The notes below the pieces were generated by a model. The model searched no databases and had not been told where the DNA came from. It was given only the letters and a program-made list of their open reading frames with translations. A program made the position numbers and the translations under genes. This document shows, in pieces, positions 12,119-22,938 of a DNA stretch of 64,000 nt. How positions within the stretch are numbered: the first letter of the stretch is position 1; the number at the start of each line of letters is the position of its first letter. The stretch is taken from NCBI RefSeq assembly GCF_009695545.1, contig NZ_VUNS01000004.1:124001-188000 (forward strand), given 5' to 3'. Origin of the DNA: Victivallis lenta. GTDB lineage: Bacteria > Verrucomicrobiota > Lentisphaeria > Victivallales > Victivallaceae.

Positions 12119-13286
12119 AAAAATGAAGATCTGCCACGTCATCACCCGCATGATCGTCGGCGGCGCGCAGGAGAACACGCTGTACACGATTCTCGGCCAT
12201 CTGCGCAGGGGGCACGAGGTCGTCCTGGTCACCGGCCCGTCACCGGGGCGGGAGGGGAAACTGCTGCAGAACGTCGATTTTCCGCCGTTCGAAACGGTCG
12301 AGCTGCCGAGCCTGGTCCGCGAGCTCGACCCGGCCAACGACCTGAAGGCGTATTTCGCTCTGAAAAAGTTCTTCCGGGAGCGGAAATTCGACATCGTCCA
12401 CACCCACAGCTCGAAGGCCGGCGTCATCGGCCGGATCGCGGCCCGGCGCGCCGGCGTGCCGGTCGTGGTTCACACCGTCCACGGTCAGGCGTTCCATCCT
12501 TACGAAACCGGCTGGAAAAATGCGCTCTACAAGGAGTCGGAACGGATCGCCGCCCGTTACTGCGACAAAATCTACGCCGTCGCCCAAGCCATGATCGATC
12601 AGTGCGTCGAGGCCCGCATCGCCCCGCGCGAAAAATACATGGTCGTTTACAGCGGCATGGAGACGTCCGCGTTTGCGAACGCGGTGCGGGAACCGGAGCT
12701 GCGGAACGAGCTTGGACTTCCGGAAAAGGCGCGGGTCATCGCAACCCTCGCCCGGCTCTTTCCGATGAAAGGTTACGAATACGTCGTCCCGGCGGCGGCC
12801 GAGCTGATCCGGGAGTATCCGGATACGCACCTGCTCCTGATCGGCGACGGGCCGATGCGCGACGAACTCGATGCGCAGATCGCCGCGCTCGGACTGACGG
12901 ACCACTTCCACTTTGCCGGACTCGTGCCTCCGGCCCAAGTACATCGCTATCTCGCGCAGGCCGACCTGCTCTGGCATTTGTCGCTGCGCGAAGGGCTGCC
13001 GCGCTCGGTGGTGCAGGCGCTGGCGACCGGCATCCCGGCGATCGGCTACCGCCTCGACGGCACCCCGGAGGTGATCCGCGACGGGGAAACCGGCTACTGC
13101 GTCGCGCCGCAGCAGGTCGGCGAAGTCATCGAAGCGACCCGGAAGATCTGGAACGATCCCGCTCTCGCCCGCCGGATGGGGGAGACCGGGCGGAAACGCG
13201 TCATCGAACAATTCGACTGGCCGCGCATGGCCGATATTCTGAAAAGGGAATACCGTGAGCTTCTGGCGCACAAAACTCGAAGCTGA
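12105..13286 (+). CDS. glycosyltransferase family 4
   Basis: A 393-residue GT-B enzyme. The N-terminal Rossmann domain begins MKICHVITRMIVGGAQENT and includes the VHTHSSKAGVIGR loop. The C-terminal nucleotide-sugar-binding domain has the IGDGPMRDEL loop and a family-4 Glu-containing stretch (REGLPRSVVQALATG, then GTPEVI). It probably transfers a sugar from a nucleotide donor during polysaccharide or lipopolysaccharide assembly at the inner membrane. GGAGG lies 9 bases before the ATG at 12105, inside the end of comEC; a second ATG at 12123 is possible. The gene overlaps comEC by 14 bp and the larE start by 32 bp, so translation of the three is probably coupled. The acceptor is unknown. Confidence 0.9.
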   Translation: MSSGKKMKICHVITRMIVGGAQENTLYTILGHLRRGHEVVLVTGPSPGREGKLLQNVDFPPFETVELPSLVRELDPANDLKAYFALKKFFRERKFDIVHTHSSKAGVIGRIAARRAGVPVVVHTVHGQAFHPYETGWKNALYKESERIAARYCDKIYAVAQAMIDQCVEARIAPREKYMVVYSGMETSAFANAVREPELRNELGLPEKARVIATLARLFPMKGYEYVVPAAAELIREYPDTHLLLIGDGPMRDELDAQIAALGLTDHFHFAGLVPPAQVHRYLAQADLLWHLSLREGLPRSVVQALATGIPAIGYRLDGTPEVIRDGETGYCVAPQQVGEVIEATRKIWNDPALARRMGETGRKRVIEQFDWPRMADILKREYRELLAHKTRS

Positions 13287-14046
13287 GCTCCGGCCGTACG
13301 GAAAGCTTGCCGTCGCCTTCTCGGGCGGCTGCGACAGCACGTTGCTGGCCGAGGCGGCGCGGCGTGTGCTCGGCGGCGGCAATGTGCTTCTGCTGCTGGC
13401 CGACTCGGTTCTGCTGCCGCGCCGCGAGGCAGAACAGGCGCGGACGCTGGCGGCGGCGGCAGGACTCCGGCTCGAAACCGTTCCGCTGGACCCGCTGGCG
13501 GACGAGGCCGTGCGGGCTAACGGTCCGCTGCGCTGCTATTACTGCAAGAAGCGGATTTTCACCGCGCTCGGCGAACGGGCGCGCAGCCTCGGTTTTGCGG
13601 TACTTGCAGACGGAGCGAATTTCGACGACCGGGGGGATTACCGGCCCGGCGCGAAGGCGGCCGATGAGCTCGGCGTGGCACATCCGCTCCGGGAACTGCC
13701 GAAGCAGGCGATCCGTGATCTGGCGCGGGAGTGGAAGCTGCCGGTCTGGAACCTCCCGGCGGCGGCCTGTCTCGCAAGCAGGATTCCGGCCGGAACGCCG
13801 CTGGACCGGGAAGCGCTTGCGACGGTCGAAGCCGGGGAGAACGCGGTCGCGGCACGGGGATACACCGGCTTCCGGGTACGCAGGATCGGGCCGGAAACGG
13901 CCCGGCTCGAGTTCCGGGCGGACGATCTGGAACGGGCGGAGGCCGAACGCGGGAGCCTCGAAACGCTGCTTGCCCCGCTCGGCTTTGAAACCGTTGAGAT
14001 CGCGCTGTACCGTACCGGCTCGATGAACCGCGCATCCGGGGCATAA
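13255..14046 (+). CDS. larE: ATP-dependent sacrificial sulfur transferase LarE
   Basis: A 263-residue PP-loop enzyme. The ATP pyrophosphatase motif SGGCDS is at residues 23-28, a Cys-containing stretch (PLRCYYCKK) at 91-99, and the family motif CLASRIP at 172-178. In characterised LarE the Cys of that last motif donates its sulfur to make the nickel-pincer nucleotide cofactor of lactate racemase and related enzymes. Translation starts at a GTG (13255) after AAAGGGA, inside the glycosyltransferase gene. The partner genes larA, larB and larC are not in this window. Convergent with the Gfo/Idh-type gene downstream. Confidence 0.85.
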   Translation: MSFWRTKLEAELRPYGKLAVAFSGGCDSTLLAEAARRVLGGGNVLLLLADSVLLPRREAEQARTLAAAAGLRLETVPLDPLADEAVRANGPLRCYYCKKRIFTALGERARSLGFAVLADGANFDDRGDYRPGAKAADELGVAHPLRELPKQAIRDLAREWKLPVWNLPAAACLASRIPAGTPLDREALATVEAGENAVAARGYTGFRVRRIGPETARLEFRADDLERAEAERGSLETLLAPLGFETVEIALYRTGSMNRASGA

Positions 14047-14381
14047 AGACGGCCGGGACGTATCCGGCCGCCGGGCAGCCTGCATTCGGACACCTCCCGG
14101 TTCACAAGCCGAATCGGAAATTCCGGCGGAGACCCTGCACGGCCTGTTGCGCGAGACCCCGGAAAGGGCGCGCAAACTCACCGGCAACAATACGGCCCCG
14201 CATTTTAACCACGCCGGCGGCTCCGGCCAGTCAACAGCTTGTCGGACAGTCTCTTCGACCGCGGCGTTCACACCGGGCGGAACGCCGCGACTCCGCCGCG
14301 GCCCCTGGCGCAGGGAGCTTCGCGCGGGCCGACTTGAGGTTCTGCCTCTGGCTCCGCCCGGCGTTCCCCCTGCGTTTGCCG
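14047..14381. other. 335-bp intergenic stretch between convergent genes
   Basis: No gene is recognised here. A G+C-rich inverted repeat (CGGCCGG ... CCGGCCG) sits just after the larE stop, without a U-tract. The rest shows no ribosome-binding site plus frame combination that looks coding on either strand. Confidence 0.5.
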
Positions 14382-15449
14382 TCAGAACTTGACCGGCTCG
14401 CCGGTCCGGGCCGACTCGTAGATCGCGTCGAGCAGACGCATGACGACCACGCCTTCCTCTGGCTGGACGAGGAACGGAGTGTCGTCCCGCACTGCGTCGG
14501 CGAAAAGCCAGAATGCGTTGCGGACTTCCGGCGACGAATGGAGTTTGCTGTCGAACTGCCTGCCTTCCATATCCTGATAATATTCGGCATCCCAGGTATA
14601 GCCTTCATTCAGGTTATACTGGTAGAGCCCGCCCTTGTCGCCGAGAATGCGGGTCGACATCTGTTCGTTCTCTTTGATGTTCGAAGCCCAGGCCGCGTCG
14701 AGTTCGAGCGTGGCGCCGTTCTTGAACTTGATCATCGCGCAGGCGAGGTCTTCGACCGTGTAGTCGAGTCCGCGTTCAGCCGCGAGCTTTCCGGCGATCT
14801 TGCAGTAGGTGCTGCCCATGACCCAGGCCGGTTCGGGGTAGCCCATGAGCCAGAGCGCAAGGTCGAGCCGATGCACGCCGAGGTCGATCAGCGGGCCGCC
14901 GCCCGACTGGCTCTTGTCGAAAAACCAGCTTCCGGCGCCGCCGCCCTTGGTGTTGAAACCGGAGCCGAGGCCCGGCACGCCGCGACGGCGCAGCCAGACG
15001 CTGCGTCCATAGTAGATCTCGCCGAGACGGCCCGCATCGACCAGATCCTTCATGGCGCGGGACTGCGGGTTGAAGCGGTAACTGAAGTCGATGCCGAGCT
15101 TCAGGCCGAGCCGTGCGGCCGTGTCGAGCATCTCCTGCGCCTCGGCGGTATTCATCGCCATCGGCTTTTCGCAGAGGACGTTCGCCCCGGCTTCGAGCCC
15201 GGCGATGGTCAGTTCCCTGTGCTGGTTGTTCGGTACGGCGACCGACAGGATGTCGAGCTTTTCGTTCCGGATCATGTCGATGCCCTCGGCATAGACTTTC
15301 GGGAGATTGAACTCCTTCTTCGCGTTTTCCCGCTTCGCCTCGATGCGGTCGGCGACGGCGACGACCTCGACATCGGGGTGTTCCATGTAGCCGGCGAGAT
15401 GCCCCCACCCCATGCCGAGACCGATAACGCCTGCTTTCAGCTTTGCCAT
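14382..15449 (-). CDS. Gfo/Idh/MocA-family oxidoreductase
   Basis: A 355-residue protein. The N-terminal Rossmann motif (VIGLGMGWGHLAGY, about 8-21) binds NAD(P), and the signature EKPMAMNT (about 94-101) precedes the C-terminal alpha/beta substrate domain. There is no signal peptide, so it is probably cytoplasmic. Such enzymes oxidise or epimerise sugars, inositols or sugar acids. It follows the ThuA-domain gene by 24 bp on the same strand; ThuA-Gfo/Idh pairs are common in sugar-utilisation loci. The ribosome-binding site is weak (AGAAGAAAG). Likely controlled by the divergent AraC-type regulator at 16431-17309. Substrate unknown. Confidence 0.9.
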   Translation of the reverse strand: MAKLKAGVIGLGMGWGHLAGYMEHPDVEVVAVADRIEAKRENAKKEFNLPKVYAEGIDMIRNEKLDILSVAVPNNQHRELTIAGLEAGANVLCEKPMAMNTAEAQEMLDTAARLGLKLGIDFSYRFNPQSRAMKDLVDAGRLGEIYYGRSVWLRRRGVPGLGSGFNTKGGGAGSWFFDKSQSGGGPLIDLGVHRLDLALWLMGYPEPAWVMGSTYCKIAGKLAAERGLDYTVEDLACAMIKFKNGATLELDAAWASNIKENEQMSTRILGDKGGLYQYNLNEGYTWDAEYYQDMEGRQFDSKLHSSPEVRNAFWLFADAVRDDTPFLVQPEEGVVVMRLLDAIYESARTGEPVKF

Positions 15450-17553: not shown

Positions 17554-17629
17554 TGGCATCTCCAATGGGAGTCGAACCCATGTTGCCGGGATGAGAACCC
17601 GGTGTCCTAGGCCACTAGACGATGGAGAC
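17554..17629 (-). tRNA. tRNA-Glu (anticodon CTC)
   Basis: The minus strand folds into a standard cloverleaf. The acceptor stem is GTCTCCA / TGGAGAT, the D-arm contains TAGTGGCCTAGGACA, and the anticodon stem CCGGG / CCCGG has loop TTCTCAT and anticodon CTC. The T-arm is ATGGG TTCGACT CCCAT, the discriminator is G and the CCA is encoded. It reads GAG. Bases 1-72 form a G-U pair. A promoter is visible upstream, and gltX, which encodes the synthetase that charges it, is divergent. The 244 bp between the AraC-type gene and this tRNA show no other gene. Confidence 0.95.
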
Positions 17630-17830: not shown

Positions 17831-19291
17831 ATGAAAATGCCCGGTAAAACAGTCAGAACCAGATTTGCTCCGAGTCCGACCGGATTCATGCATGTCGGCA
17901 ACCTTCGGACCGCGCTCTATGCGTTTCTGCTCGCGCGTTCGCAGAACGGAAAATTCATCCTCCGCATCGAAGATACCGATCAGGCACGCTATGTGGAGGG
18001 AGCGGTCGATGTGATCTACAAGACGCTCGAATCCGCCGGGATCACCCATGACGAAGGGCCTGACGTCGGCGGCGATTTCGGACCGTATATCCAGAGTGAA
18101 CGCAAGAAACTCTATCTCCCCTATGCCGAGGAGCTCGTGAAAAAGGGCGCCGCCTATTACTGCTTCTGCGACAAGCAGGAGGCCGCCGATCCCGCCCCGG
18201 AGGGCGACCCGGCCGTCTCCGGCTATGACGGCCGCTGCCGGAATCTCGACCCGGAGACCGTCGCCGCGAACCTGGCCGCCGGGAAACCGTATGTGATCCG
18301 GCAGAAGATCGACAAGGACGGCGTTTCAACCTATCACGACGCTGTTTACGGCGAAATCACCATCGAGAACAAGGTTCTCGACGACCAGATCCTGATCAAG
18401 CGGGACGGCATGCCGACCTATAACTTCGCAAATGTGATCGACGACCACACCATGGGCATCACCCACGTCGTGCGTGGCTGCGAGTATCTTTCGAGCACGC
18501 CGAAGTATAATCTGCTCTACCGGGCCTTCGGCTGGGAGGTTCCGGAATATGTGCACCTGCCGCTCATCATGGGCCGCGACGCGGAGGGAAATGTCTCGAA
18601 GCTGTCAAAGCGGCACGGTTCCGTGAGCTTCGAAGGGCTCGTCGCCGAAGGTTATCTGCCGGCAGCGGTCATCAATTATATCGCGCTGCTCGGCTGGTCG
18701 CCGAAGAACGACCGCGAAATTTTCTCGCTCGCCGAACTCGAACAGATCTTCAATGTGAACGGCCTCAATAAATCCGCCGCCGTGTTCGACTACGACAAGC
18801 TGACCTGGATGAACGGCGAATACATCAAGGCGCTTTCGCCGGAGGCGTTCGCCGCGCTGGCGTTCCCGTTTTCGAAGCTGGCGGGAACGGCTCTTGAGGA
18901 GAAATGGCCGCTCATTGCGCCGCTCCTGCAGCAGAGAGTCGAGAAGCTGACCGATATTCCGGAGAAGATCGGGTTCCTGTCGGAACAGCCGGACTATTCC
19001 GCCGAGCTTTTCCGCAACAAGAAAAGCAAAGCCACGCCTGAAACCGCAAAAGCGGCGCTGGAGGCGCTCATCCCCGAATTTGAAGCGCTTGAGGCCTGGG
19101 ACGTCGAGTCTCTGAATGCAGTCATGACCCGTTACGCCGAAGCGCAGGGGGTGAAGATCGGCCAGCCGATGTGGGCGATCCGGATCGGAGTGTCGGGGCT
19201 GGCCGTCACTCCGGGAGGCCCCTCCGAAATCATGACCATTCTCGGCAGGGAGGAATCCCTGCGCCGGCTGCAGCTCGCCCGGCAGAAATAA
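17831..19291 (+). CDS. gltX: glutamyl-tRNA synthetase
   Basis: A 486-residue class I aminoacyl-tRNA synthetase that attaches glutamate to tRNA-Glu in the cytoplasm. The HIGH-equivalent lies in FAPSPTGFMHVGNLRTA (about 13-29), and the KMSKS-equivalent is KLSKRHGS (about 257-264). The length is normal for bacterial GltX, and the C-terminal anticodon-binding region is complete. The start at 17831 (or the Met two codons later) has only a weak ribosome-binding site. The gene is divergent from tRNA-Glu(CTC). Downstream is a repeat-rich island without genes. Confidence 0.96.
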   Translation: MKMPGKTVRTRFAPSPTGFMHVGNLRTALYAFLLARSQNGKFILRIEDTDQARYVEGAVDVIYKTLESAGITHDEGPDVGGDFGPYIQSERKKLYLPYAEELVKKGAAYYCFCDKQEAADPAPEGDPAVSGYDGRCRNLDPETVAANLAAGKPYVIRQKIDKDGVSTYHDAVYGEITIENKVLDDQILIKRDGMPTYNFANVIDDHTMGITHVVRGCEYLSSTPKYNLLYRAFGWEVPEYVHLPLIMGRDAEGNVSKLSKRHGSVSFEGLVAEGYLPAAVINYIALLGWSPKNDREIFSLAELEQIFNVNGLNKSAAVFDYDKLTWMNGEYIKALSPEAFAALAFPFSKLAGTALEEKWPLIAPLLQQRVEKLTDIPEKIGFLSEQPDYSAELFRNKKSKATPETAKAALEALIPEFEALEAWDVESLNAVMTRYAEAQGVKIGQPMWAIRIGVSGLAVTPGGPSEIMTILGREESLRRLQLARQK

Positions 19292-19314
19292 CCGGATGCC
19301 GTGCAGCCGTTCCA

Positions 19315-19337
19315 TGCACCCTGACCGGCAGGGTGCA
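19315..19337. repeat. perfect hairpin, 9-bp arms
   Basis: TGCACCCTG, loop ACCGG, CAGGGTGCA, 23 bp after the gltX stop. No U-tract follows, so it may or may not end gltX transcription. Confidence 0.7.
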
Positions 19338-19387
19338 GACCCTTGATGCCACAACACGCCGGTTGGGAGCGCTTGCGCGACCGGGTT

Positions 19388-19459
19388 CAGGGCCATTCGG
19401 CCCTGGCGAGGTTCCAAGGGGCGCGGAGCCCCTTGGCGGAGTTTGAGGCAGCGCCTCAA
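19388..19459. repeat. three consecutive perfect hairpins
   Basis: CAGGGCC-ATTC-GGCCCTG (19388-19405), CCAAGGGGC-GCGGA-GCCCCTTGG (19414-19436) and TTGAGGC-AGC-GCCTCAA (19443-19459) stand 6-8 bp apart. Each is fully paired in its arms, a density not expected by chance. Confidence 0.75.
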
Positions 19460-19574
19460 GCTGCCCCGGGCAAAGCCCCTGCGCAAAAATCCGCAACAAA
19501 GTTGCGGTGCTTTGCACGGTGTGAGCGACGCGGCGAACGCCGCGGAGCGGTCAAAGGGTCTGCCGCGTTGCAAA

Positions 19575-19598
19575 TCCGGTCAACTACGATCGACCGGA
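19575..19598. repeat. palindromic element, copy 1
   Basis: TCCGGTC and GACCGGA form 7-bp arms around AACTACGATC. The flanks (TTGCAAA before) match those of the second copy at 19843-19866. Confidence 0.7.
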
Positions 19599-19649
19599 GC
19601 CGCAAACATTGCTTGAATGCGAGCTGTCAAGGTTGTAGACAGGGGGATG

Positions 19650-19677
19650 CGCGCCCCTTCCGGGGCGCGGTCTTTTT
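19650..19677 (+). terminator. terminator-like hairpin inside the island
   Basis: CGCGCCCC, loop TTCC, GGGGCGCG, then G and TCTTTTT: an 8-bp perfect stem with a U-tract on the plus strand. GGATGCGC and GCGCATCC form an outer inverted repeat around it. What transcript it would end is unknown; gltX is more than 350 bp upstream. Confidence 0.55.
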
Positions 19678-19729
19678 GCGCATCCGCGCAACAGACCGTG
19701 CGGGCTCCCCGTCCGAATCTCCGATTCGG

Positions 19730-19788
19730 TTTGTGAGCTGGTCGGTACGCACGCAGGCTGCCTCCGGCGGCCGGGGCGCTTCGCCCCC
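19730..19788 (+). repeat. 59-bp direct repeat, copy 1
   Basis: Starts TTTGTGAGCTGGTCGGTACG and ends GGGGCGCTTCGCCCCC. Identical to 19867-19925 and followed by unrelated sequence. Confidence 0.85.
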
Positions 19789-19842
19789 GAACCCCAGACC
19801 GGCAGGGTGCCGGTGCCGACGGCGGCTCTGCCGCCTTGCAGT

Positions 19843-19866
19843 TCCGGTCAACAACGATTGACCGGA
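19843..19866. repeat. palindromic element, copy 2
   Basis: TCCGGTCAA and TTGACCGGA are perfect 9-bp arms around CAACGA. It directly abuts the second 59-bp repeat. Confidence 0.75.
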
Positions 19867-19925
19867 TTTGTGAGCTGGTCGGTACGCACGCAGGCTGCCT
19901 CCGGCGGCCGGGGCGCTTCGCCCCC
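19867..19925 (+). repeat. 59-bp direct repeat, copy 2
   Basis: Exact copy of 19730-19788, 137 bp downstream. The internal GGGGCG-CTT-CGCCCC can form a hairpin in both copies. Confidence 0.85.
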
Positions 19926-20073
19926 TCCGCGCCAGGACAGGAAGGCCCTGCCCCCGGCCGGGCAGATACGCCCCATGCGGCAATCGCGCCTTCGCGTATT
20001 TTTTTCGAAACCCGAGTATATTTTTTCCGATTTCATTATATATTAATGAGATTGAAGAAAGGATTGCAGTTCA

Positions 20074-22938
20074 ATGTTTGAAAAGATACAGATACGCGGG
20101 GCGTCGCAGCATAATCTGAAAAACGTCGATGTGACGATTCCCCGCAATCAGTTCGTCGTCGTCACCGGGCTCTCGGGCTCCGGGAAATCGTCGCTCGCGT
20201 TCGACACGCTTTATGCGGAAGGACAGCGGCGTTACGTCGAAAGCCTCTCCGCCTACGCCCGGCAGTTCCTCGACCGGATGCAGAAGCCGAAGGTCGAACA
20301 TATCGAGGGCCTCTCGCCGGCAATCGCGATCGAACAGCGAACGGCCGGCGGCACGCCGCGGTCGACGGTCGCCACCGTGACCGAAATTTATGATTATCTG
20401 CGCCTGCTGTATGCGCATGTCGGGATTCCGCACTGTCCGCACTGCGGGCGGAAGCTCGAGTCGCAGTCGGCCGAGGCGATCGCGAAGCAGCTGCTCGCCC
20501 TGAAGCCGGGAAGGAAGATGGTGATCCTGTCCCCGTTCGTCAGCGGCAAAAAGGGCGAGCACCGCGACGTGCTCGATACGATCCGCAACGAAGGATTCGT
20601 CCGCGCCCGCATCGACGGGAAGATCGTCCCGCTCGACGGAGAAGATTTGCCGGTGCTCGAAAAGACGAAGCGGCATACCGTGGAAGCGGTGGTGGACCGC
20701 CTGATCACCGGAAAGCTCGAACCGTCGCGCCTGACCGATTCGGTCGAGCTCGCCCTGCGCCACGGCAGCGGCACATTGACCGTCCTGCTCGATGCGCCGG
20801 AGGGGGAAGAACCCGAATTCCGCGAGGAGTCGTTCAGCGAAAATCTCGCCTGCGTCCACTGCGGCGTCTCCTACGGCGAACTTCTGCCGCGCAATTTCTC
20901 ATTCAATTCGCCGTACGGGGCGTGTCCGCACTGCAACGGGCTCGGCATCCAGCAGGTCATGGACCCCGCGAAGGTCGTGCCCGACCCGTCGCTGTCGATC
21001 AAAAACGGGGCGATTCCGGGCTGGCGACGCGGTCCGCGCCATCTGATCATCTACTACAATCTGCTGCTGCGCAAGCTGGCCGAGTGGCTGAAGGAGCCGG
21101 ACATGCTGACCATGCCGTTCGAAAAGCTGCCGGAGAAGGTGCGCCGCACCATCCTGTACGGCAGCGGCAGCGAACCGCTCGAATTTGAATACCGGATGCA
21201 CGGTAAAAAGTACCGCTGGAGCAAGCCGTTCGAAGGCGTGCTCGACAACCTGCGCCGCCGCATGGAAGAGACCGAATCCGACTCCGTGCGCGAGCGGCTG
21301 AGCGAATACCTGAGTCCGCAGGAGTGCCCGGTCTGCCATGGCGCGCGGCTGAATCCGGTCAGCCTCGCGGTGACGGTCGGCGGTCTCGGCCTCGACAAAT
21401 TCAACGCGCTTTCGGTCGAAGCCGCGAAGGAGTTCGTCTGCGGTCTGAAGCTCGAAGGCGAACACGCGGTGATCGCCGGAGACATCCTGAAGGAGATCCG
21501 GAGCCGCCTGACCTTTCTGAGCGACGTCGGGTTGAACTATCTGACGCTGAACCGGGTGTCGAGCACGCTTTCGGGCGGCGAGGCGCAGCGGATCCGGCTG
21601 GCGACCCAGCTCGGCTGCGGGCTGGTCGGCGTCCTGTACATTCTCGACGAACCGTCGATCGGACTGCACCAGCGCGACAACGACCGGCTGCTCGACACGC
21701 TGGAAAAGCTGCGCGACATCGGCAACACCGTGCTTGTGGTCGAACACGACCTCGATACGATCCTGCGGGCGGACTATGTGCTCGACCTCGGCCCCGGAGC
21801 CGGCGTGCGCGGCGGCGAACTCGTCGCATACGGCACGCCGCCCGAAATTCCGTCCTTTCCGCGTTCGCTGACCGGCGACTATCTGGCCGGGCGCCGGAAA
21901 ATCGCGCTGCCGGAGAAGCGCAATCCCGGCAACGGGAAATCGCTGAAAATCCGCGGCGCCGCGCTGAACAACCTCAAAAAAGCCGATGTCGAAATTCCGC
22001 TCGGGACTTTCACCTGCGTGACCGGCGTCTCCGGCTCCGGCAAAAGTTCGCTCATCAACGGCATTCTGGTCCGCGCGCTGAATGCGAAGCAGGGCATTCA
22101 GGACCTGCCCCCCGGGAAGCATACGGCAATCGAGGGGCTCGAGCACGTGGACAAGGCGATCGTGATCGACCAGAGCCCGATCGGGCGCACGCCGCGTTCG
22201 AACCCGGCGACCTACACCGACGCGTTCGGCGGCATCCGCAAGCTCTTTTCGGAACTGCCGGAATCGAAGGTGCGCGGCTACGGCCCCGGCCGGTTCAGCT
22301 TCAATGTGAAGGGCGGCCGCTGCGAGGAGTGCAAAGGGGACGGCATCAAGAAGATCGAGATGCAGTTCCTCTCCGACGTCTATGTCGAATGCTCGGCCTG
22401 CGGCGGCCGGCGGTTCAACAAGGAGACGCTCGGCGTTTCCTACAAGAAGAAAAACATCGCCGACGTGCTCGACATGACCGTGAACCAGGCGGTGGACTTC
22501 TTCAGCGCGATTCCGTCGCTGGCGCGCAAGTTCAAGACGCTGCAGGATGTCGGGCTCGGATACATCACGCTCGGACAGCCGGCCACGACGCTGTCGGGCG
22601 GCGAGGCGCAGCGGGTCAAGCTGGCTGCCGAGCTTGCGCGGATTCCGCGCGGGCACACGGTCTACATTCTCGACGAGCCGACCACCGGGCTGCACCTCGC
22701 GGACATCGACCAGCTGCTGCGGGTGCTCTACCGGCTGCGCGACATGGGCAACACCGTGATCGTGATCGAACACAACCTCGACGTGATCAAGACGGCGGAC
22801 CATATCATCGACATGGGTCCCGAAGGCGGCGACAACGGCGGCCGGGTCATCGCCAGCGGCACGCCGGAGGAGGTGGCGAAGGTGAAAAAGTCGCATACCG
22901 GACAATACCTGAAGAAATATCTGAATGCGGGAAAATGA
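20074..22938 (+). CDS. uvrA: excinuclease ABC subunit A
   Basis: A 954-residue protein, the normal length for UvrA, the damage-recognition ATPase of nucleotide excision repair. It has two ABC modules: Walker A GLSGSGKSS (about 31-39) with signature LSGGEAQRIRLA, and Walker A GVSGSGKSS (about 650-658) with signature LSGGEAQRVKLA. Zinc-binding Cys pairs are visible (CVHCG...CPHCN in the first half, CEECKG...CSACGG in the second). AAAGGA lies 10 bases before the ATG. It works with UvrB and UvrC, which are not in this window. It stands alone between the repeat island and a lipoprotein pair. Confidence 0.97.
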   Translation: MFEKIQIRGASQHNLKNVDVTIPRNQFVVVTGLSGSGKSSLAFDTLYAEGQRRYVESLSAYARQFLDRMQKPKVEHIEGLSPAIAIEQRTAGGTPRSTVATVTEIYDYLRLLYAHVGIPHCPHCGRKLESQSAEAIAKQLLALKPGRKMVILSPFVSGKKGEHRDVLDTIRNEGFVRARIDGKIVPLDGEDLPVLEKTKRHTVEAVVDRLITGKLEPSRLTDSVELALRHGSGTLTVLLDAPEGEEPEFREESFSENLACVHCGVSYGELLPRNFSFNSPYGACPHCNGLGIQQVMDPAKVVPDPSLSIKNGAIPGWRRGPRHLIIYYNLLLRKLAEWLKEPDMLTMPFEKLPEKVRRTILYGSGSEPLEFEYRMHGKKYRWSKPFEGVLDNLRRRMEETESDSVRERLSEYLSPQECPVCHGARLNPVSLAVTVGGLGLDKFNALSVEAAKEFVCGLKLEGEHAVIAGDILKEIRSRLTFLSDVGLNYLTLNRVSSTLSGGEAQRIRLATQLGCGLVGVLYILDEPSIGLHQRDNDRLLDTLEKLRDIGNTVLVVEHDLDTILRADYVLDLGPGAGVRGGELVAYGTPPEIPSFPRSLTGDYLAGRRKIALPEKRNPGNGKSLKIRGAALNNLKKADVEIPLGTFTCVTGVSGSGKSSLINGILVRALNAKQGIQDLPPGKHTAIEGLEHVDKAIVIDQSPIGRTPRSNPATYTDAFGGIRKLFSELPESKVRGYGPGRFSFNVKGGRCEECKGDGIKKIEMQFLSDVYVECSACGGRRFNKETLGVSYKKKNIADVLDMTVNQAVDFFSAIPSLARKFKTLQDVGLGYITLGQPATTLSGGEAQRVKLAAELARIPRGHTVYILDEPTTGLHLADIDQLLRVLYRLRDMGNTVIVIEHNLDVIKTADHIIDMGPEGGDNGGRVIASGTPEEVAKVKKSHTGQYLKKYLNAGK

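Follow-up and report, generated by a model that had tools for sequence, protein, structure and literature searches.

A composite multi-hairpin repeat family at gene ends in Victivallis lenta and Victivallis vadensis

At transcript 3' ends, the stable stems of REP and BIME elements obstruct RNA polymerase or exonucleases, and BOX/ERIC-type elements are modular structured repeats of 100 nt and more. In the part of PMC12306157 that we consulted, a REP is defined as a short palindrome of about 14-40 nt. The STAXI motif, as far as the consulted section of its description goes (Weinberg 2010, PMC2864571), is a tandem, structured pseudoknot near DNA-handling genes, for which action as RNA and as single-stranded DNA were both considered. 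Here we describe a repeat family of Victivallis that resembles the REP/BIME elements, including those tagged with GTAG or CGTC, in consisting of dispersed extragenic palindromes at gene 3' ends that are mosaic, tandem and species-specific. However, the Victivallis units measure 230-280 nt and have multi-branched closing stems, with neither a conserved tag nor a link to a RAYT transposase, and 30-60 copies were found where REP/BIME elements number in the hundreds. The likeness to BOX/ERIC lies in the modular structured make-up, while the sequences are unrelated as far as known. STAXI shares the tandem, structured character, but the Victivallis elements form hairpin multi-loops and are found at any gene end. 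Lastly, a hairpin with a T-run at 19650-19677 of the window recalls an intrinsic terminator, yet the element has many stems instead of one, and the alignment shows that the V. vadensis copies do not keep the T-run. The literature that we searched holds no published description of the family, and the portion consulted of a study that counted V. vadensis regions rich in reverse-complement triplets (PMC12985086) does not describe such a repeat.

The island between gltX and uvrA

The window is a stretch of 64,000 nucleotides from V. lenta (assembly GCF_009695545.1, contig NZ_VUNS01000004.1, positions 124,001 to 188,000 of the forward strand). Within it, gltX (17831-19291, +) and uvrA (20074-22938, +) flank an island at 19292-20073, of which the repeat proper runs from about 19315 to about 19925 and contains a single A unit and a single B unit followed by a 59-nt piece of B. 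The remaining ~150 bases (19926-20073) are ordinary uvrA upstream sequence. The features are:

19315..19337, +: leading hairpin TGCACCCTGACCGGCAGGGTGCA, 18 nt of which recur in the hairpin of the B 3' domain
19365..19575, +: A unit, the first unit after the gltX stop codon (alignment of 21 copies; pair counts), built from a three-hairpin domain with closing stem at 19381-19469 (R3 match G000:C4:143381-143469), followed by a second hairpin domain
19491..19507, -: hairpin inside A, terminator-like on the minus strand
19576..19618, +: A/B junction, a CCGGTCAA..TTGACCGG-type hairpin with a decayed promoter-like TCGACC-17-TTGAAT
19619..19838, +: B unit (alignment of 20 copies; R1 match of 146 bits)
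19643-19767, +: B core, stems P1-P5
19650..19669, +: P2 hairpin of B, then GTCTTTTT, terminator-like (T-run through 19677)
19768-19838, +: B 3' domain, with GCCTCCGGCGGCC at its head and then hairpins
19843..19866, +: second junction hairpin TCCGGTCAACAACGATTGACCGGA (self-repeat and hairpin scan)
19867..19925, +: what is left of a deleted third unit, a truncated piece of B whose 59 nt match 19730-19788 exactly
14068..14179, -: the other B copy of the window, diverged (R1, 35.5 bits, E 1.5e-4), between genes 13255-14046 (+) and 14382-15449 (-)

The initial annotation had reported at least five perfect hairpins, a terminator-like element and internally repeated blocks without a convincing gene, and each of these observations held up. 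Perfect hairpins with a stem of at least 6 and a loop of 3-8 number 16, and those with a stem of at least 7 number nine, compared with means of 1.75 (maximum 5) and 0.48 (maximum 2), respectively, in 200 dinucleotide shuffles of the island. Five nearby coding stretches of 782 nt each hold 0-2 hairpins with a stem of at least 7. Folded as RNA, the island reaches -405 kcal/mol, as opposed to -344 (sd 7.5) in 20 shuffles, a z of -8.1. The internal repeats are a 59-nt pair (100% identical, at 19730 and 19867), a 56-nt pair (79%, at 19543 and 19811) and an 18-nt pair (94%, at 19319 and 19793), and the terminator-like element on the plus strand has a counterpart on the minus strand. A codon-usage ORF caller made no call inside the element arrays of 20 V. 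lenta loci, and the aligned copies contain indels not divisible by three. Elsewhere in the window, a tRNA-Glu (CTC) gene at 17554-17629 (-) adjoins gltX in divergent orientation; by reading, L077 (G002) and L080 (V. vadensis) likewise have a tRNA-like sequence containing this CTC stretch close to gltX.

A repeat family with one kept fold

A search of the 5.5-Mb V. lenta genome for further copies of the hairpin units, as the initial annotation had proposed, gave 69 blastn matches to the island and 33 matches to R1, a covariance model of the B core. The identity of the element as a repeat family is firm. Unit A is about 255 nt long (21 copies aligned) and unit B about 230 nt (20 copies aligned), and both single units and tandem arrays are seen, the latter with a period of 268-288 nt or, for A plus B, of 536 nt. 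The family is a mosaic of A, B and fragments. What had been suggested as a possible accumulation site of small REP/MITE-like elements is indeed a dispersed, multi-copy palindromic repeat, but one in which a single large composite element is copied as units. Mean identity is higher within arrays than between them, both for B copies (0.93 versus 0.81) and for A copies (0.895 versus 0.83), with 0 of 2000 permutations in either case, which fits the prediction of tandem duplication and homogenisation. Copies also lie at or near V. lenta contig ends (L103, L106, L107, L034, L036). The repeat probably breaks the genome assembly there, and since several arrays reach contig ends, copies are probably undercounted and their true number higher. 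Alignment A1 leaves out the partial units C20_110609, C3_130742 and C49_1, A2 leaves out the A units of C2 and C3_130582, and A7 leaves out one A row with an internal deletion (L035:4618-4695).

Outside V. lenta, a 245-nt blastn query from unit A matched none of 60 other genomes, eight of them from the genus; no A unit was found in V. vadensis either, by nhmmer in 30 loci or by model R3 over the whole genome, and confident R3 matches are restricted to the V. lenta genome. The weak multiple matches that R3 also made in G004 (10) and G005 (2) fall on other multi-hairpin arrays. These arrays of other genus members (L194, L197, L199, L201 and L203 in G004, where they are tandem, and L196 in G005) are quite different, with a GGTCAAGGGC..GCCCTTG hairpin module. 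For the B core, in contrast, R1 gave 57 matches in V. vadensis DSM 14823, the best at 80 bits (E 5.5e-12), and V. vadensis thus has a diverged sister family of unit B. A covariance model of both species was positive in two of 137 genomes of the order under strict filters, and a fuller search of five other genus members found 0 copies; within the genus the family is patchy, occurring in two of nine members. Plasmid and phage records gave no match to 462 nt of the element or to a 41-nt module, and the exact B pattern was absent from genome-contig and viral-contig collections, in which the own species is possibly masked. The outcome that the initial annotation named as speaking against it, an island with no other copies and no conservation, is therefore not what we find, as both further copies and cross-species conservation are present.

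The B core folds into a closing stem P1 around hairpin P2, the long hairpin P3 and a stem P4 that carries P5, with P3 (GGUCU..AGACC) as the most constant part. In an alignment of 59 distinct rows that covers both species, 95.8% of cells are paired, whereas slid partners lower pairing to 28-46%, and 0 of 500 shuffles were as high on any of five covariation measures. The covariance analysis with relatives that had been called for shows changes on both sides in 31 of 38 pairs between the two species, at a mean B identity of 57%, where it should be noted that pair counts on A4 and A6, both of unit B, are biased in favour of the structures, as their rows were placed by models. Indeed, the R1, R2 and R3 alignments are all fitted to named structures, and R2 was given 40 of the 43 sources used for A4 (matches kept at E<=1e-7), while A3, A7 and the slide controls are only partly subject to this bias. 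V. vadensis taken alone (45 distinct rows) still has 14 of 38 covarying pairs, all five P4 pairs included, against 0 of 500 shuffles. In the three-hairpin domain of A, six of 29 pairs covary, and because 13 of 500 shuffles were as high, and 462 of 500 on pair types, covariation is weaker in A. One multi-branched fold has thus been kept while nearly every base pair was replaced.

Spread, location and alternative readings

We consider it probable that the island represents one copy of a composite repeat (A plus B), non-coding, rich in hairpins and specific to the lineage, that was tandemly amplified and dispersed as DNA in V. lenta; that amplification took place as DNA is, by itself, likely. Such an element would be a BIME-like amplifying DNA repeat with a multi-branched fold that is tolerated at gene ends. 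Copies would arise by slippage or unequal recombination inside arrays and would be dispersed by an additional route that needs no RAYT transposase, surviving where promoters and genes stay unbroken, namely directly downstream of stop codons and in the gaps of convergent gene pairs. By analogy with REP/BIME, stems that are read through would block RNA polymerase or exonucleases at the 3' end, and on this comparison effects of the elements on transcript 3' ends are probable.

The location of the elements is strict. None of the 38 gaps with elements is divergent, and 17 of them are convergent, compared with 32 divergent and two convergent in 91 control gaps of at least 100 nt from the same loci, although the control gaps come from an ad hoc ORF caller and the elements themselves lengthen gaps. 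Twelve of the 13 V. lenta arrays that start with A follow a same-strand gene (read from the table; the exception is L031), and seven of these twelve begin at most 11 nt from the stop codon. Of the 26 V. vadensis loci examined, out of 57 R1 matches, 25 have a called gene downstream, and in 24 of these that gene runs convergently towards the B 3' end. Where both flanking genes share a direction, B is antisense in 14 cases and sense in one. Of all the observations, this orientation rule is explained least well, and a simple model of elements tolerated where harmless has no account of 14 to 1. Gene order differs between the species, and no locus was found with both flanking genes common to the two, while leuA lies near an element in both. 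Nor was an empty gltX-uvrA site found, as no uvrA follows gltX in the seven loci read from relatives, in several of which the frames do not end at the gltX stop.

Could the element instead be a pure passenger, a tandem repeat without host function in which template-switch correction keeps the hairpins perfect? This reading is possible but doubtful. The presence in only two of nine genus members, the homogenisation of arrays and the scarcity of non-Watson-Crick pairs, with little strand bias, all agree with it. Furthermore, template switching during replication has been argued to create compensatory changes in one step, and proposed to make and keep perfect hairpins, in the sections consulted of PMC8794818. 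While this process explains local hairpins readily, it does so less readily for P1 and P4, which enclose other stems, and these long-range stems are kept together with the branch order at 57% mean identity between species. The strict orientation and location likewise speak against a pure passenger.

A single RNA strand under selection should show more G-U pairs than C-A mismatches. For the B strand we counted 12 G-U types versus six C-A types in V. lenta and 13 versus nine in V. vadensis, both without the two window rows, and 18 versus 12 in a larger V. vadensis row set (p 0.36). This surplus leans towards RNA selection, short of proof. Of the structured RNA that the initial annotation had offered as one possibility, the kept fold with strong covariation is borne out, but the wobble pairs show no more than a lean towards the excess expected of a purely RNA-selected element. 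With a slight G-U lean on the one hand, and template switching that fits the hairpins but P1 and P4 less well on the other, the RNA and DNA routes are both viable, and the compensatory changes may reflect selection acting on the folded RNA, a template-switch correction of DNA in which the hairpins serve as template, or a combination of the two.

It is less probable still that A/B constitutes a structured ncRNA gene, multiplied in the genome and, in V. lenta, transcribed from a TTGACC-17-TAAAAT promoter at the junction, a reading that we regard as unlikely. The multi-branched fold with its deep covariation and the lack of an ORF would suit such a gene, as would the A/B junction hairpin with its sigma-70-like promoter, seen at 24 junctions (20 V. 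lenta loci and the window), seven of them exact; at the island itself this promoter is decayed. However, no junction promoter was seen upstream of the 42 V. vadensis copies inspected, the wobble excess is weak, copies may be truncated and fused, such as the third unit in the window, and 30-60 copies is a high number for such a gene. Moreover, at the gathering threshold Rfam matched only the tRNA in the window, and the further matches at E<=5 were at chance level and of no relevance. The junction promoter was dropped as a general family feature, since inspection showed the V. vadensis copies to be without it.

That the elements are REP/BIME elements mobilised by a RAYT transposase is very improbable and largely refuted, having been rejected on transposase, tag and length. 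Extragenic location near gene 3' ends does resemble that of REPs, which, in the part consulted of PMC3733652, lie in convergent and same-strand gaps near the 3' end of the upstream ORF, and the V. lenta genome has two Y1 transposase matches. However, V. vadensis, the genome richest in copies, has no Y1_Tnp match, and inspection of both V. lenta Y1 loci showed differing flanks and no A/B hairpins nearby. The repeating units, at 268-288 nt with composites up to 538 nt, exceed the REP length, and at P5b GTAG occurs in 0 of 25 V. lenta and two of 33 V. vadensis copies and CGTC in 18 of 25 and 0 of 33, again counted without the two window rows. The alternating orientation typical of BIMEs was limited to one back-to-back inverted B pair (L114, V. 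vadensis), the arrays being otherwise direct tandem. One of the V. lenta loci, L074 (G000:C3:206747-209953), holds a RAYT-like Y1 transposase with GGTAGGGC-type palindromes of its own, roughly 0.5 kb ahead of an ORF whose sequence, by eye, resembles a Cas9 start.

The remnant of a mobile element, which the initial annotation had also raised, would, whether as a MITE, an integron attC array or a group II intron piece, likewise be dispersed, structured and tandem, but is the least credible reading, as we found no transposase, no terminal inverted repeat on self-comparison of the island, no evident target-site duplication in the flanks read, no match in plasmid and phage records, and a best intron-like Rfam score of 17.6 against a cut-off of 36.

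Related cassettes and meaning of the family

The GCCTCCGGCGGCC 13-mer that opens the B 3' domain occurs 29 times in V. lenta and 96 times in V. vadensis (reversed controls 6 and 7), compared with 0-3 times in each of the other seven genus members. It is raised again in another family of the order, in G053 (26), G058 (12) and G106 (16), where it heads different tandem hairpin cassettes. A locus with matching flanks in two species holds three tandem GCCTCCGGCGGCC-headed cassette copies in G058 and two in G053 (L171, L173), and G351, a genome of the class, has repeats of a longer GCCTCCGGCGGCC form. On an unrelated high-GC contig from a virus collection (L178:732-774), GCCTCCGGCGGCC-hairpin-GGAATCCC directly follows an apparent stop codon. 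The kinship of all these with the B 3' domain is putative. We can offer only as a speculation that these belong to a new class of large multi-branched elements, acting as single-strand structures (folded RNA or ssDNA), that mark bacterial gene ends. Their sequence would be particular to each lineage, while they would share a grammar of a GCCTCCGGCGGCC head, a hairpin and GGA-CCC, with closing stems around several hairpins, and one orientation to the preceding gene, reached by insertion or by retention.

The composite repeat would add a large, transposase-independent kind to the interspersed palindromic repeats, and the presence of the family in the V. vadensis type strain makes it testable. 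The family would also be a clean case for asking whether compensatory hairpin changes are proof of RNA selection, or whether template switching of DNA can make them. It offers many paralogous copies in two species, stems of both long and local range and a small wobble bias, and so allows the two predictions to be told apart.
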